A stretch of 6,612 bases of DNA, from contig DAOVRJ010000143.1 of assembly GCA_030628225.1 (NCBI GenBank), forward strand, positions 1 to 6,612, in the 5' to 3' direction. Positions 1-3,971 of this stretch are shown one piece after another; the first letter of the stretch is position 1, and each line of letters opens with the position of its first letter. The notes below the pieces were generated by a model. The model made no database searches. It saw only the letters and a program-made list of their open reading frames with translations, and was not told the origin of the DNA. This DNA is from Candidatus Zixiibacteriota bacterium (GTDB taxonomy: Bacteria > SM23-81). Position numbers and translations under genes: made by a program.

Positions 1-108
1 AAAGAGAGCGCGTTGGAGATGTATGAGCGCTGCCGGGCTCTAAAACGCGAATTGGGCTCGTCGGTACCAGAGGCGTTGCTTGACAAGATTAGGGAACTGG
101 GTGGATAA
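1..108 (+). CDS. C-terminal end of a BTAD/TPR-type protein (partial)
   Basis: Frame 1 is open from the window edge to a TAA at 106-108, giving 35 residues; the start lies outside. The peptide contains AL-x-MYERCR-x-LKRELG followed by P-x-A-L and a final helix. This resembles the last helical repeats of bacterial transcriptional activator (BTAD) domains, found in SARP-type and LuxR/TPR regulators, where YxRCRxxLxxELG is typical. In that family the domain is a TPR-like helical module next to the DNA-binding or ATPase part. Only the tail is visible, so the full architecture is unknown and a plain TPR protein is the alternative. The gene ends 30 bp before the left inverted repeat of the AT-rich island and is on the opposite strand to the island genes. 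Confidence 0.6.
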   Translation, partial: KESALEMYERCRALKRELGSSVPEALLDKIRELGG

Positions 109-138: not shown

Positions 139-161
139 GGGAATTATCCCTTTGAAGCAGA
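139..161 (+). repeat. Left terminal inverted repeat of the island
   Basis: This 23-bp sequence starts with the near-palindromic GGGAATTATCCC. It matches the reverse complement of 3173-3195 at 21 of 23 positions, including 15 perfect bases. It contains the stop codon of the small membrane protein gene that reads toward the edge. Confidence 0.7.
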
Positions 162-362
162 TTTAGATTCTTCAACAATTAAAGGAACCCATCGGAAGGG
201 TTCTTGGCCTAAACGCCAAGTTTGCCCCGTCCATTTATTTATTTTTATAGCGCCGCCCGCATCATTAAGTGCCACATAATATCTATTACCCATGTTGGAA
301 AAAATTAGAAAGCCCACAATGAGTCCAATAATTACTCCAAGCATAAAACTTTTCCAATTCAT
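144..362 (-). CDS. Small single-pass membrane protein, unknown function
   Basis: The protein is 72 residues long and I do not recognise a family. Residues about 5-23 form one hydrophobic transmembrane segment (MLGVIIGLIVGFLIF), preceded by a lysine. The rest, about 48 residues, is polar and probably extracytoplasmic. It contains YYVALNDAGG...INKWTGQTWRL and then FRWVPL, a short beta-rich pattern also seen in other small membrane-anchored proteins with TGxxWRL...W(V/I)P motifs. The start is supported by a perfect Shine-Dalgarno GGAGGTGAT (complement of 366-374) placed 3 nt from the ATG measured from its end, or 7 nt measured from GGAGG. The stop codon lies inside the left inverted repeat, so the gene ends exactly at the island edge. 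The nearest upstream minus-strand element is the hairpin leader and short ORF at 410-570. Confidence 0.7.
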   Translation of the reverse strand: MNWKSFMLGVIIGLIVGFLIFSNMGNRYYVALNDAGGAIKINKWTGQTWRLGQEPFRWVPLIVEESKSASKG

Positions 363-484
363 GTTATCACCTCCAGAACGGTACCCCCCGATTCCTGGCT
401 ACGGTCTATCTACATTTTCTGCGGATAGGCTTGGGCGGAGTATGTATATGCGATCTCACGCGCACGCGTTTCTGCCCCCGCTTT

Positions 485-520
485 TCAACCCTTTCGGGTC
501 GACATTTTATACGGGACCAT
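485..520 (-). CDS. Possible 11-codon leader peptide (frame resumes after UGA to 410)
   Basis: An ATG at 518-520 is preceded by an excellent Shine-Dalgarno, AAAGGAGGTGA, with 7 nt between GGAGG and the ATG. It starts the peptide MVPYKMSTRKG and then meets UGA at 485-487. The same frame is open for 24 further codons to a TAG at 410-412. The +1 frame is also open and encodes a very basic stretch rich in Arg and Lys that ends just short of the same place. So this may be a regulatory leader peptide, a short gene broken by one nonsense mutation, or a gene needing recoding at GGU-UGA. The strong ribosome binding site and the hairpin immediately upstream favour something translated. No family is recognised. 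It precedes the 72-residue membrane protein gene by about 120 bp. Confidence 0.35.
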   Translation of the reverse strand: MVPYKMSTRKG

Positions 521-532
521 GATCTCACCTCC

Positions 533-570
533 TTTCAGTTGCGATGTTTGCCCTACCATCACAACTGAAA
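533..570 (-). promoter_or_regulatory. Hairpin upstream of the short ORF's ribosome binding site
   Basis: TTTCAGTTGCGATG (533-546) and CATCACAACTGAAA (557-570) pair over 14 positions with one G-T wobble or mismatch and a 10-nt loop. On the minus strand the hairpin ends at the first bases of the AAAGGAGGTGA ribosome binding site. It could therefore mask or expose translation of the short ORF, or act as a protein-binding operator. There is no T-run after it in either direction, so it is not an ordinary intrinsic terminator. Confidence 0.6.
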
Positions 571-656
571 TTTGGCGAGACAAATAGGGGGGTACCAGCT
601 AATAATTGTCGTAGATCAATGCATTTGAAAGAACAGATTTGTAAATGTCTTGGGAA

Positions 657-1289
657 TTATTGGGTTTGAGTACCGAATTTTTCGGACGCAGCAACTGGAA
701 TCCATCTAATATAGCCTCGTTGATCTCTTGCGCCTTGAAATCTAAATCTTTGTTTGTTTTGAAATGGTTTCCAGTCTAAATGAAGATTGAATAAAAACGA
801 CCATTTGTAACTAATTATAAAGTCAATATCTGCTTCGTCGATTCGTTCTATCCTTTCTATATTTCTTTTTGCCTCAATATTCAATTTGGGAATGAAATAA
901 TCTAATCTTAAGAATTCTGTTGTCTGCTCACCAGCCCTTAAAGTTTGAATATAAACTCCTTCATAAAGAAAAAGTCGATTCTGTATCTTAAGTGGTTTTG
1001 AAATTCCTTCTCTTGCTGTGCCAGTTAAATATCTTATGTAATAGGCCATTTCGATATCATATATTTCAAAGAAACCTTCGTTTTTTACTATAAATGGTGC
1101 AGATAGTGGATTAGAGGAGTGCGTAGCTAATGATGGTGTTATTGACACATTGGATTTCCAACCTAAGAAAATCGCTATTATGCCAATTATTACAGAAAAC
1201 CCAATGATTGTTTTCCATATTAAAGCTAAAACCCTCTGAAATCTTGATCGAGATTTTGACTTGGGTTTGTGCTTTGATCGTTTCGGCAT
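657..1289 (-). CDS. Membrane-anchored protein of unknown function
   Basis: The protein has 210 residues. Residues 1-18 are strongly basic (Lys/Arg/Ser-rich), and about 21-43 form one transmembrane helix, so by the positive-inside rule the rest is outside the cytoplasm. From about residue 47 it reads as a beta-rich domain: SITPSL, then NPLSAPFIVKNEG and IYDIEMAYYIRYL. This pattern is common in membrane-anchored proteins with an immunoglobulin-like or arrestin-like fold, in which a tolerated N-E-G turn is followed by paired strands. The C-terminus has YIRWIPVA, reminiscent of FRWVPL in the small protein at 144-362. The start follows AAAGGAG about 10 nt upstream. The gene begins only 49 bp after the transposase pseudogene on the same strand and may depend on transcription from it. 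No catalytic motif is visible. Base composition is clearly AT-rich compared with the flanking housekeeping genes. Confidence 0.7.
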   Translation of the reverse strand: MPKRSKHKPKSKSRSRFQRVLALIWKTIIGFSVIIGIIAIFLGWKSNVSITPSLATHSSNPLSAPFIVKNEGFFEIYDIEMAYYIRYLTGTAREGISKPLKIQNRLFLYEGVYIQTLRAGEQTTEFLRLDYFIPKLNIEAKRNIERIERIDEADIDFIISYKWSFLFNLHLDWKPFQNKQRFRFQGARDQRGYIRWIPVAASEKFGTQTQ

Positions 1290-1337
1290 TGGTTGGGGTT
1301 CTCCTTTTTTACGTAATCATCTATATTGGAAATATCA

Positions 1338-2196
1338 TTATCTCCCATTTAAACTAAGACCATTTGATAATACTTTCTTATAAACATCATCTTGGAAATT
1401 GTGATTGAATCTAAATGTAAATTCATTCAGATACAAAGGCAAGTATTTTGCCGACATCTTATGATGTGTTCCGATAAATGCACGCTTGAGAATGGACCAG
1501 AAACTTTCAACCCCGTTGGTATAGACTTGATCTCTCACATATTCTAACTGATGATTAATCCTTTTGAGGTTTGTAATCTATGGCAAGCTGGTTATACGAG
1601 GGAAATTCACCGACACAGAGCATTTCGGCGTTATTGTGGACATACTTTCTGATTATGCCACAGACCGTTCTGGCCTTCACGTTGGGAATCAATTGGGCTC
1701 TGAGCTTGCCGTTTCTTTGCCTGACTCCGATGATAATAGCTTTGCTTTTAGCTCCACGTCCACGCTTGCCGTGGGCTTTACCACCCAGGTATGTTTCATC
1801 TGCCTCAACAATGCCCTTGAATTTTTGTATGAAGTCAGAATCTTTCATGGCTCGTCTAATGCGATGCATCATATACCAGGCCGTCTTGTACGTGACTTTC
1901 AAATCCCGTTGTATCTGTTTGGCCGAAATCCCCTTCCTGGCATTGCACAAGAGAAACGTGGCGAGAATCCACTTATTAAGTGGCAAGTGGCTACCGTGGA
2001 AGATCGTACCTGCTGTTACTGAGAACATATACCGACACTTGAGACATTGGAATTTGTGGACGGTTTTGATACGAGAAATGGCACGTGATTTGCAGCGTGG
2101 ACATTCAGGGCCATCGGGAAATCGTAGCCGTTCAAGAAATTCTAAACACGCTTCTTTGGTATTAAATCGTTCTGCAAGTTCGATTAAGGATGTCAT
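1338..2196 (-). pseudogene. IS1595-family (ISXO2-like) transposase, frameshifted and with a lost catalytic Asp
   Basis: Starting at the ATG at 2196 (GAGGGGA ribosome binding site), a zinc ribbon comes first (CPRC and CLKC, residues 32-54). A helix-turn-helix-like stretch follows at about 90-117, then the DDE domain with the first catalytic Asp in VEADETYLGGK (D133). The family's usual TDE motif reads VGE here: GGT at 1609-1611 in place of GAT, so the second catalytic Asp is Gly196. The frame then ends at TAA (1555-1557). The remaining part (YVRDQVYTNGVESFWSILKR, then the EFTFRFNHN region) continues in the +1 frame to 1338. Removing one A from the AAAA run at 1562-1565 would join the parts into about 285 residues, the normal family length. 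A sequencing error could explain the frameshift but not the Asp-to-Gly change as well. Some IS1595 elements carry passenger genes. Clear element ends adjacent to the gene were not found. Confidence 0.88.
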
Positions 2197-2197
2197 T

Positions 2198-2250
2198 TCT
2201 TGGCTCCCCTCTAAAAAGTTTTTCAACTTTTTTCTTGACAGGAGCCAAGA
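2198..2250 (-). promoter_or_regulatory. Inverted repeat sequestering the transposase ribosome binding site
   Basis: TCTTGGCTCC (2198-2207) and GGAGCCAAGA (2241-2250) are perfect 10-bp inverted repeats. A second pair, AAAAAGTT (2213-2220) and AACTTTTT (2225-2232), is nested inside. On the minus-strand transcript the GGGGAGCC that serves as ribosome binding site for the ATG at 2196 lies in the outer stem. Readthrough RNA entering from upstream genes would fold and block translation. This device is known from several IS families, such as IS10 and IS50, for preventing activation by outside transcription. The role here is inferred from structure only. Confidence 0.6.
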
Positions 2251-2263
2251 TTTATGGTATCGT
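2235..2263 (+). promoter_or_regulatory. Possible outward-facing sigma70-type promoter
   Basis: A perfect -35 box TTGACA (2235-2240), a 17-nt spacer and a weak -10 TATCGT (2258-2263) point rightward, antisense to the two tRNAs. The only matching plus-strand terminator is at 2524-2565. The -10 box matches only four of six positions, so the promoter may be weak or a chance match. Confidence 0.35.
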
Positions 2264-2307
2264 TTAAGTAGAGTTGAGTTCTTAGCTCTTTGTCAGGGCT
2301 CAGCGTC

Positions 2308-2346
2308 GGGGAGTTCTGAAAACTTTAGCGAGTGGAAGAACTCCCC
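2308..2346. repeat. 10-bp inverted repeat (stem-loop) downstream of the tRNAs
   Basis: GGGGAGTTCT (2308-2317) and AGAACTCCCC (2337-2346) pair perfectly around a 19-nt loop. On the minus strand the stem begins 15 nt after the 3' end of the second tRNA. No T-run follows the stem in either direction. It may be a processing or stabilising structure at the end of the tRNA transcript, or part of a former element end. Confidence 0.5.
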
Positions 2347-2361
2347 ACAAAAAGAATGTTG

Positions 2362-2436
2362 CGGCCCCGCCGGGATTCGAACCCAGAGTCTCCAACTTAG
2401 CAAGAGTGGCGCATTATCCAGTTATACTACGGGGCC
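2362..2436 (-). tRNA. tRNA-like gene with abnormal anticodon arm (GCT fits best; no class II arm)
   Basis: The 75-nt sequence folds as a tRNA. It has a perfect 7-bp acceptor (GGCCCCG/CGGGGCC), discriminator G, T8-A9, D arm GTAT/ATGC with GG in the loop, 5-nt variable region, and T arm CTGGG-TTCGAAT-CCCGG. The anticodon arm is 18 nt instead of 17: CCACT, then an 8-nt CTTGCTAA, then GTTGG. The stem has a C-T mismatch and a T-G wobble. An alternative fold uses a 7-nt loop with a bulged T. By the rules of T33 and purine 37 the best anticodon is GCT (Ser AGC/AGU), but serine tRNAs normally carry a long variable arm that is missing here. TGC (Ala) would need T37. CCA is not encoded. It may be a pseudo-tRNA, a degenerate passenger copy, or an unusual decoder. 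Confidence 0.7.
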
Positions 2437-2443
2437 AATACAG

Positions 2444-2516
2444 TGCGGCGCAGGGGGATTGAACCCCTCATACCTGATTCAAAGTCAGGTGTCCTATGCC
2501 AATAGACTAGCGCCGC
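2444..2516 (-). tRNA. tRNA-Gln(TTG)
   Basis: This is a 73-nt regular cloverleaf. The acceptor is GCGGCGC/GCGCCGC with discriminator A, and the D stem is GTCT/GGAC with GG in the loop. The anticodon stem CCTGA/TCAGG closes the loop CTTTGAA, giving anticodon TTG, which reads CAA (and CAG by wobble). The variable region has 4 nt, and the T arm is AGGGG-TTCAATC-CCCCT. CCA is not encoded and must be added. It lies 28 nt after the HARE-HTH gene and 7 nt before the second tRNA on the same strand, so all three are probably transcribed together from the promoter at 3016-3044. Confidence 0.93.
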
Positions 2517-2523
2517 AAGATGG

Positions 2524-2565
2524 GAGAAGCCGTAATGCTGCTACATTACGGCTTCTCTTTTTCTT
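2524..2565 (+). terminator. Strong hairpin with T-rich tail on the plus strand
   Basis: GAGAAGCCGTAATG (2524-2537) and CATTACGGCTTCTC (2544-2557) form a perfect 14-bp stem with a 6-nt loop. On the plus strand TTTTTCTTTC follows directly, the form of an intrinsic terminator for rightward transcription. On the minus strand the hairpin overlaps the stop codon of the HARE-HTH gene and lies between that gene and tRNA-Gln. There it has no T-run, so it may let minus-strand readthrough proceed into the tRNAs. Confidence 0.7.
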
Positions 2566-2980
2566 TCTCCCATTCTCTAAGGCCAAAAGTGGCCTTGTAG
2601 TCCTCTGATTTCTTGAACAGGTCTATTCTCTGATATGCCAAAATCGAATACAGTGTGGTATAAAGATTACGCACATTCTCATACGGTTTGTAGCCCTTAT
2701 ATCCACCTTCTATCATTATTTGGGCTATTCTTTTCAACGGCATCGGCTCTTTGTGTTCTAAGAGAATGGTCCTTGCTGCTTGAGCAGCTGTCATGTTTTC
2801 AAAACGGTTGGAGTTTTTGTTCATTAATCCTCGCATTTCCATTTGGGCATCTGATTCGATTTTGAGAAGCCCCTGTAGATATTCAATGGTCTGATTCAAG
2901 GCTCGCAGTTTTTTTCCTAACTCGGCTCGCTCTTTTTTGGCATGAATAAGTGCATCATTTATTGTTGTTGATTTCACCAT
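2546..2980 (-). CDS. Coiled-coil plus HARE-HTH winged-helix protein
   Basis: The protein has 144 residues. Residues about 10-45 have heptad-like charged and leucine-rich sequence (AKKERAELGKKLRALNQTIE) predicted to form a coiled coil. Residues about 64-137 (AAQAARTILLEHKEPMPLKRIAQIMIEGGY..., SILAY, FKKSEDYKATFGLREW) match the pattern of HARE-HTH domains. That winged helix-turn-helix is found in the RNA polymerase delta subunit, HB1/ASXL proteins and some restriction endonucleases, and is thought to bind DNA or link to transcription. No nuclease or other catalytic motif is present, so it is a stand-alone adaptor or regulator. GGAGGTGATGTGAA precedes the ATG, and a consensus promoter lies at 3016-3044. 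It is the first gene of a minus-strand unit that continues into two tRNAs. The exact function is unknown. Confidence 0.72.
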   Translation of the reverse strand: MVKSTTINDALIHAKKERAELGKKLRALNQTIEYLQGLLKIESDAQMEMRGLMNKNSNRFENMTAAQAARTILLEHKEPMPLKRIAQIMIEGGYKGYKPYENVRNLYTTLYSILAYQRIDLFKKSEDYKATFGLREWEKEKEKP

Positions 2981-3015
2981 TTCACATCACCTCCGATTCG
3001 CCTTCTTCACCCCAT

Positions 3016-3044
3016 AATATAATATAGTTGGAGGGGAATGTCAA
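3016..3044 (-). promoter_or_regulatory. Sigma70-type promoter of the HARE-HTH/tRNA unit
   Basis: On the minus strand TTGACA (3044-3039), a 17-nt spacer and TATATT (3021-3016) form a near-consensus promoter. The start site would be about 3009, giving a leader of roughly 28 nt before the ATG at 2980. The rest of 2981-3141 is AT-rich and holds no ORF or RNA gene that I can support. Confidence 0.8.
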
Positions 3045-3141
3045 GTCTTTTATGTTGTGTTTTGAAATAAATGTTTTGTTGAGTTTACTTTTAATAATAA
3101 CACCTGCCATGACTAAAAGCAAGCACTTTTTTAAAAAATAG

Positions 3142-3378
3142 CCGGCCGCTTGGCAGACTCAATTCGGAGCTTTCTGCCCCAAAGGGATAATTCCCTTATC
3201 TAATTGCAAAAACCTCATGACATTGGCCATCGAAATGGGCGCGAATGTGAAAGTTTGCGGGATTTGCGCCCGGGAGCGGGCGTTGAGCCAAAACGAATTG
3301 ATAGAGGGAGCGGCCATTGGGTCCATGCAGGACTTGATTGGATGGATTTTAGATGCGGATAAGGTGGTGAGTTTCTGA
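3142..3378 (+). pseudogene. 3' remnant of a DsrE-family gene
   Basis: The frame is open from the codon after a TAG (3139-3141) to TGA (3376-3378). It lacks a good start with a ribosome binding site; an internal ATG lies at 3217. The encoded sequence IIPLSNCKNLMTLAIEMGAN, VKVCGICARERAL, ELIEGAAIGSMQDLIGW and LDADKVVSF* matches the C-terminal half of DsrE/DsrF-like sulfur-relay proteins. That family pattern is an A-x-E-x-G-V stretch, a C-x-x-C-like segment, LIEG, and a final ADKVLSF. Family members are about 110-120 residues and this covers roughly 60-70, so the N-terminal part is gone. The missing part coincides with the right edge of the AT-rich island, and the inverted repeat 3173-3195 lies within the frame. 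Loss by rearrangement at this edge is the likely cause. Confidence 0.65.
3173..3195 (-). repeat. Right terminal inverted repeat of the island
   Basis: The reverse complement of this sequence matches 139-161 at 21 of 23 positions. AAAGGGATAATTCCC (3181-3195) is the perfect 15-bp part. It coincides with the change from AT-rich to GC-rich DNA and with the broken end of the DsrE reading frame. Confidence 0.7.
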
Positions 3379-3443: not shown

Positions 3444-3971
3444 ATGCCGGAACTTCCCGATCTGGAGGTTATTAAGGATTTTCTGGGCAAAGCCATTCGT
3501 GGCGTTCTGATCCAAGAGGTCGAGATAACCGAGCACCTGGTGCTGCGCTGCTCGGCCGACGACTTGATCGACGGACTGGAGGGAAAGGCGTTTTCTGGTG
3601 TTCGCCGGCGGGGCAAGTTTCTCATTTTTGATCTGGCTGAGGATGCCCATCTGGTCTTTCACCTCATGATCGCGGGAAGGCTCCAGTACTGTTCGGGCGG
3701 GGAGAAACCCCTGGCCGGGATATGTCTGCGCCTGAAGCTTTTCCCCGACCACGAGCTACGCTACTATGACCGCAAGCGAATGGGCCGGGTCTACTGGGTC
3801 GGGGAGACGGATTTTTCGTCGATCCCGCAGTTCGCAGAGTTGGGCCCCGAGGCCACAGATCCGGCGGTGGACCTGGAGACCTTCTGCAAACGCATCAGGC
3901 GCCACCCGGGGCTGTCAGCGGTGATGCCGGTGTCTGATAAGAGGTGGTTTGATTCTGAAAAGGAGGATTGA
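3444..3971 (+). pseudogene. Truncated Fpg/MutM-family DNA glycosylase (N-terminal domain only)
   Basis: The 175-residue product starts MPELPDLEV. After Met removal the Pro1 nucleophile and Glu2 of formamidopyrimidine-DNA glycosylases are in place. It continues with RRRGKFLIF (Lys near 57), HLMIAGRL (73-80, family HLGMSGxL) and YYDRKRMG (family DxRRFG), and keeps normal similarity to about RIRRHPG (156). The family then needs about 110 more residues, the helix-two-turn-helix (GIGNxYADE) and usually a C-terminal zinc finger, both used for DNA binding. Here only 19 unrelated residues follow before TGA, and no leftover of the missing part is found in any frame before rnz. So the gene has probably lost its 3' third by deletion; a stand-alone N-terminal domain is possible. 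The start has GAGGAG 3 nt upstream. The tail contains AAAAGGAGG and overlaps the leader of rnz, so both are likely cotranscribed. Confidence 0.75.

Follow-up and report, generated by a model that had tools for sequence, protein, structure and literature searches.

The groups of the IS1595 family of insertion sequences (IS) and the 8-bp target-site duplication (TSD) made by its members have been described (PMC8101967). Elements of this family that carry passenger genes are called 'transporter IS' (tIS), an example being ISNha5, and their passengers include transcription regulators, according to the passage of PMC11891212 that cites Siguier 2009. On the side of translation, the serine synthetase is known to ignore the anticodon of its transfer RNA (tRNA) (PMC6827378). 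Here we describe a contig of a Candidatus Zixiibacteriota bacterium (DAOVRJ010000143.1) that was analysed over its whole length of 6,612 bp (hereafter the window) and belongs to a 2.34-Mb genome assembly of 306 contigs. The AT-rich island at positions 139-3195 of this window (3,057 bp) is, with a probability that we put at about 0.9, a decayed, passenger-carrying DDE transposon of the IS1595 family, and its cargo between the terminal inverted repeats (TIRs) consists of three protein genes and two tRNA genes besides the transposase.

The ends of the island fit those of related transposons

The element is delimited by the following features (window positions).

139-162, plus strand: left TIR, outer base 139, outer 16 bp perfect against the right end; best matrix site
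3172-3195, minus strand: right TIR, outer base 3195, adjoining the start of dsrE homology at 3196; second-best matrix site
1338-2226, minus strand: IS1595 transposase pseudogene, in two open reading frames (ORFs), 1555-2226 and 1338-1538, with a frameshift near 1550

The left end, GGGAATTATCCCTTTGAAGCAGA (139-161, plus strand), pairs in inverted orientation with GGGAATTATCCCTTTGGGGCAGA (3195-3173, minus strand), the two being identical at 21 of 23 positions. An initial annotation of this DNA had reported the repeat with this identity and a perfect run of 15 bp; the identity stands, and the perfect outer run measures 16 bp. The pair is the top ungapped inverted repeat of the window (score 17); in 488 segment-wise dinucleotide shuffles that kept the two composition zones, the score never rose above 16. 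Every convincing gene inside the island lies on the minus strand, as had been noted. The change of composition claimed for both ends is clear at the right, where the guanine-plus-cytosine content is 0.32-0.46 inside and 0.54-0.62 outside; at the left the flank is just 138 bp long. The outer 16-mer has no further exact copy in the assembly. It matches viral contigs exactly at 21 loci, once in each, and in relatives, with one mismatch allowed, it forms no paired ends.

We collected relatives of the transposase from genomes and from IMG/VR contigs and located their inverted repeats with exact 8-bp duplications without using the repeat of the window. The pool came to 168 distinct elements, which occur in other bacteria and in phages, and 124 of them have exact 8-bp TSDs. 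The median length of these 124 is 2.4 kb (5th to 95th percentile, 1.7-4.2 kb), which indicates that cargo is the rule. Their ends have a consensus of about SGNRATTATATACTTGACAAA. A matrix of 24 positions was built from 115 elements with exact 8-bp TSDs (230 ends) and scored on both strands of the window; it placed 139 on the plus strand first (14.4) and 3195 on the minus strand second (12.8), with the next site at 3.7. As the matrix ranks both ends of the island at the top, we conclude that the repeat in the window is the end pair of this transposon group.

The cargo of the relatives is varied and includes a methylase with a restriction enzyme, HTH proteins, a SocA/Panacea antitoxin, a ClpP-like protease, DUF3800 and small membrane proteins, names that derive in part from Pfam matches and in part from reading of the sequences. 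Several of these elements are of interest in their own right. One TSD-confirmed IS1595-type element (L384) contains an Rfam orphan RNA, DUF3800-IX (8403-8467, 66.9 bits), together with a DUF3800 gene, and other DUF3800 RNA motifs may likewise be transposon cargo. An Acido-Lenti-1 RNA (L385, 5575-5620, 50.1 bits) lies about 50 bp beyond the end of another such element. A phage contig (L127, 434-8615) combines a large tRNA array with an inserted IS1595-type element, whose TSD is AATAAATG. The element L448 (4352-6719) carries a SocA/Panacea antitoxin gene, a partner ORF and a UGC tRNA gene between its end and its transposase. Finally, a tRNA-bearing IS1595 element, L382 (4419-4509; protease ORFs at element positions 1456-2527), encodes a ClpP-like serine protease of the SDH type with a +1 frame break exactly before the catalytic-serine motif (PHCGI / SAATM).

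A host gene is interrupted at the right end

The flanks were compared with G001, the one genome of the same family in the comparison, and with other genomes, among them G002 and G003.

3196-3378, plus strand: remaining 3' half of the disrupted host gene dsrE; identity to G001 is 73% over the 60 residues that begin exactly at 3196
1-108, plus strand: 3' end of an unrelated host gene in the left flank, with no relative in G001-G003

The homology of dsrE to G001 reaches back to codon 3196-3198 and no further, which puts its start one base beyond the repeat, and in two more distant relatives the homology to the window gene likewise begins at this codon. In G001 dsrE is intact and is followed by fpg and rnz in the same gene order as in the window. 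The broken DsrE frame described in the initial annotation needs rewording: the frame remains open across the right repeat and by itself proves nothing, and the evidence is the start of homology, which does break at 3196 beside the repeat and has the appearance of an insertion end. With the outer ends as the top two matrix sites and dsrE cut at the repeat and intact in G001, the suggestion that the island is a tRNA-carrying IS1595-type transposon is well supported. Farther to the right, similarity of the truncated fpg (3444-3971) to a 268-residue G001 protein ends at residue 157, the C-terminal part having been lost beside the transposon.

The left flank holds the last 35 codons of a different gene. 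No N-terminal half of dsrE turned up anywhere in the genome, whose completeness is about 92%. A simple insertion would leave dsrE sequence and a duplication at the left; neither is there, which argues against a simple insertion. This suggests an adjacent deletion or other rearrangement as the simplest explanation for both the absent duplication and the missing 5' half of dsrE. Because the missing 5' half explains the absent duplication, we file the element as a decayed derivative and not as an intact member of the IS1595 family.

The transposase matches PF12760 (Zn_ribbon_IS1595) and PF12762 (DDE_Tnp_IS1595), both above the cut-off, and is the sole copy, no further IS1595 transposase having been found in the genome. 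Its second catalytic aspartate is replaced (VGEFPSY in the window versus TDE or TDD..Y in relatives), so the DDE triad is not intact. Given the frameshift and the loss of this aspartate, the transposase is a pseudogene and the element, judged from its sequence, is dead.

Three points weigh against this assignment. The distance between the transposase and its end is 969 bp in the window, where the tRNA module lies inside it, and is mostly 45-470 bp in relatives, exceeding 900 bp in just 1 of the 124 TSD-confirmed elements. The window copy has no 8-bp target duplication, its flanks reading TTTAAAAT and TTATCTAA, a difference that had been recognized from the start. Moreover, the window is a single contig of a draft assembly. 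The repeat and the break in dsrE could in principle be artefacts of a fragmented draft genome, to which 306 contigs, a window that is one whole short contig and the lack of a TSD would all be congenial; however, the ends fit the external TIR model to the base and are present in one copy only in the assembly, which makes repeat collapse unlikely, and we give such an origin next to no credence. A decayed IS1595 transposon remains our reading of the island.

Small protein genes accompany the tRNA genes

The protein genes of the cargo and the signals around them are as follows.

144-362, minus strand: ORF for a small protein of 72 residues with one N-terminal transmembrane-like stretch
657-1289, minus strand: ORF for a protein of 210 residues with an N-terminal transmembrane-like stretch, the hydrophobic segment being judged by eye
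2546-2980, minus strand: gene for a protein of 144 residues with an N-terminal coiled coil and a putative C-terminal HARE-HTH winged helix (weak match to PF05066)
2522-2559, strand not assigned: perfect hairpin at the 3' end of the HARE-HTH gene, ahead of the tRNA genes
3016-3044, minus strand: sigma-70-like promoter, TTGACA-17-TATATT, matching 11 of 12 consensus bases (consensus match only), upstream of the HARE-HTH gene and the tRNA genes

A Pfam search placed the 72- and 210-residue proteins in no family; membrane-like ORFs are also present among the cargo of relatives. PF05066 covers its full 71 positions on the 144-residue protein with an E-value of 2e-5 and 25.3 bits, the gathering cut-off being 25.9, and a single-sequence AlphaFold model, too weak for fold searches, gives this protein a long N-terminal helix. 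PADLOC models of known anti-phage systems matched none of the three cargo proteins. The island also contains a 217-bp segment (380-596) that has a 14-bp inverted repeat (GGTACCCCCC...) at its borders and a hairpin inside it at 523-580; it may be a nested insertion resembling a miniature inverted-repeat transposable element.

The combination of a small coiled-coil/winged-helix gene with one or two tRNA genes is found in the window element and in three others. In a Betaproteobacterium (L436; TSD TAATTTTT), the gene for a coiled-coil protein that matches HARE weakly precedes two tRNA genes, the first (UGC) 7 bp away and the second (UUA) beyond it; on a phage contig (L629; TSD GGAAAATG), a UUA tRNA and an Arg-like tRNA flank a coiled-coil/winged-helix-like protein; and in L128 (TSD TAAGCAAA) the tRNA is upstream of the coiled-coil/winged-helix-like protein. 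All three modules have their genes on one strand and lie within TSD-confirmed elements. The Betaproteobacterium that hosts L436 also has a dense tRNA array with short-arm tRNA-Leu genes (L460, contig G386:C1, 862842-865499). Two findings speak against a common module: the small proteins of the four cannot be aligned, and Pfam detects HARE in just two of them, in one weakly. With proteins too diverged to align, it is a repeated architecture that is shown and not the common descent of the module.

A search for relatives of the HARE protein among phages, plasmids and 399 genomes around the host of L436 returned the query alone. This bears on a different origin of the island, in which an AT-rich tRNA island derived from a phage or plasmid received a plain 1-kb IS1595 copy, the outer repeat being unrelated. 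In its favour, paired tRNA genes are a typical phage feature, the transposase lies centrally in the island and there is a weak match between the HARE protein and a PHROG without an assigned function. This account is nevertheless largely refuted by the finding that the outer ends, and no inner sites, fit the TIR class of the relatives of the transposase; dsrE breaks at the outer end, and the HARE protein is without relatives in phage or plasmid records. We regard it as very unlikely and treat the whole island as one transposon in what follows.

Cargo tRNAs with anticodons at odds with their bodies

Both tRNA genes of the window were found with ARAGORN.

2361-2436, minus strand: tRNA gene with anticodon UGC, or with an 8-nt anticodon loop (Rfam, 46.9 bits; C3:G70, G73)
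2443-2516, minus strand: tRNA gene with anticodon UUG (Rfam, 58.8 bits; G1:C72, C2:G71, A73)

The Rfam alignment of the UGC tRNA has one inserted base in the anticodon loop, and an 8-nt loop is possible but uncertain. As reference we used the tRNAs of the same genome and of two host genomes. Because typing of the tRNA bodies by nearest neighbour was ambiguous for both genes, only identity positions were considered. The tRNA-Ala element G3:U70, present in 3 of 3 reference tRNA-Ala, is missing from the UGC tRNA, and other UGC cargo tRNAs lack it as well (G:C in L436, T:A in L448). U1, G2:C71 and G73 all occur in 3 of 3 reference tRNA-Gln, and the UUG tRNA has none of these tRNA-Gln elements. These positions show that in both window tRNAs the predicted anticodon is at odds with the charging signals, with no Ala or Gln identity elements.

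Across the whole collection, 17 elements contain at least one tRNA gene by ARAGORN, and 13 of these 17 have exact duplications. Density alone was dropped as proof of selection, the effect being marginal: 17 against 10.5 expected from the flanks (p 0.016), a mild increase that itself counts against a special role for the tRNAs. In bacteria, tRNAs with a long-arm body are those for Leu, Ser, Tyr or Sec. Among the long-arm cargo tRNAs, 10 of 13 have anticodons for Ile (UAU), Pro (UGG, AGG) or ochre (UUA), as against 0 of 13 reference long-arm tRNAs, all of which are Leu, Ser or Tyr (Fisher p 5e-5). Nearest-neighbour typing assigns Ser bodies to L135, L187 and L381 and Leu bodies to L247, L309 and L436, and N73 also indicates Ser or Leu bodies in several cargo tRNAs. 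Unrelated elements repeat the same odd anticodons (UAU in 5, UUA in 2, UGC in 3 and UGG in 2). On these grounds the cargo tRNAs look miscoding, with body and anticodon mismatched.

A real rival has the elements acquiring ordinary or decayed translation tRNAs by chance, with drift behind the mismatches. We hold it possible, short of probable. The mildly raised density suits it, as do the imperfect anticodon stem of the window tRNA at 2361-2436 and the differences in tRNA identity among phyla. What it does not readily accommodate is that stems are mostly near-perfect and CCA is encoded in many of the genes, that the L385 and L386 tRNAs differ by a compensatory change in the anticodon stem, that odd anticodons recur in unrelated elements and that the reference tRNAs show no such mismatch.

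The odd tRNAs might instead serve the element itself, if cargo ORFs needed them to work (UAA read as Leu, AUA as Ser, or a four-base codon). Ochre tRNAs in L436 and L629, the 8-nt loop in L396 and possibly in the window, and the frame break right at the catalytic serine of the L382 protease all point this way. Against this, reading through TAA gives no sensible extension for any cargo ORF of L436 or L629, and the AUA codons of the L382 protease fall at hydrophobic positions; with these checked, self-recoding by ochre or UAU tRNAs is not supported, and we consider self-recoding as a whole improbable.

A proposed history and function of the element

We propose that, while active, the transposase made its cuts at the 24-bp ends and that insertion of the unit duplicated 8 bp of the target, as is seen in the relatives and would hold for the window copy too. 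The element would have landed in dsrE, and an adjacent deletion or rearrangement would later have taken the left duplication and the 5' half of that gene. The transposase would then have decayed through the frameshift and the loss of aspartate that it now displays.

As to the cargo, the reading that we favour is one in which the coiled-coil/winged-helix protein would control the operon. The tRNAs would be charged according to their bodies and read another codon, and their expression would lead to mistranslation or to readthrough of stop codons. That the module joins a regulator to miscoding tRNAs is nonetheless a tentative proposal, which we rate well below even odds. Similarly speculative is the wider proposal that IS1595-type transposons spread such a regulator with one or two miscoding tRNAs, the tRNA being the effector in RNA-based addiction or in phage defence through mistranslation. 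The miscoding tRNAs meant here are those with Ser or Leu bodies and Ile, Pro or stop anticodons, and others with non-Ala or non-Gln bodies.

If it exists, a transposon that moves tRNAs whose identity and anticodon disagree would be a route by which codon reassignment, stop suppression and mistranslation pass between bacteria and phages. With this locus, one can test whether miscoding tRNAs serve mobile elements as effectors. In addition, the end sequences allow many more cargo-carrying IS1595 elements in metagenomes to be delimited to the base.

Comparison with known systems

The window element resembles tIS in its transposase family and its TIR-bounded cargo, and its relatives do so in their 8-bp target duplications. 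It differs from known tIS in that it has tRNA cargo beside a coiled-coil/winged-helix gene, is decayed and has no TSD. The initial annotation suggested that this may be an undescribed tRNA-carrying transposon of the IS1595 type; passenger-carrying IS1595 elements are a known kind, recorded in the cited passage of PMC11891212, and the novelty lies in the tRNA cargo, not in the transposon type. In the literature searched we found no report of tRNA cargo in IS1595 elements, alone or paired with a coiled-coil/winged-helix gene.

To our knowledge, the mistranslating and suppressor tRNAs described so far are laboratory mutants, human variants or phage suppressors. The cargo tRNAs are like these (chimeric tRNA-Ser/Leu, ochre suppressors) in combining bodies that their synthetases recognize regardless of anticodon with other anticodons, UUA among them, and unlike them in being natural transposon cargo beside a regulator-like gene. 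They also share with the tRNA arrays of phages and mobile elements their place on mobile DNA. Such arrays, however, hold many tRNAs, whereas the elements described here carry one or two, mismatched in identity and enclosed within a TIR-bounded unit.

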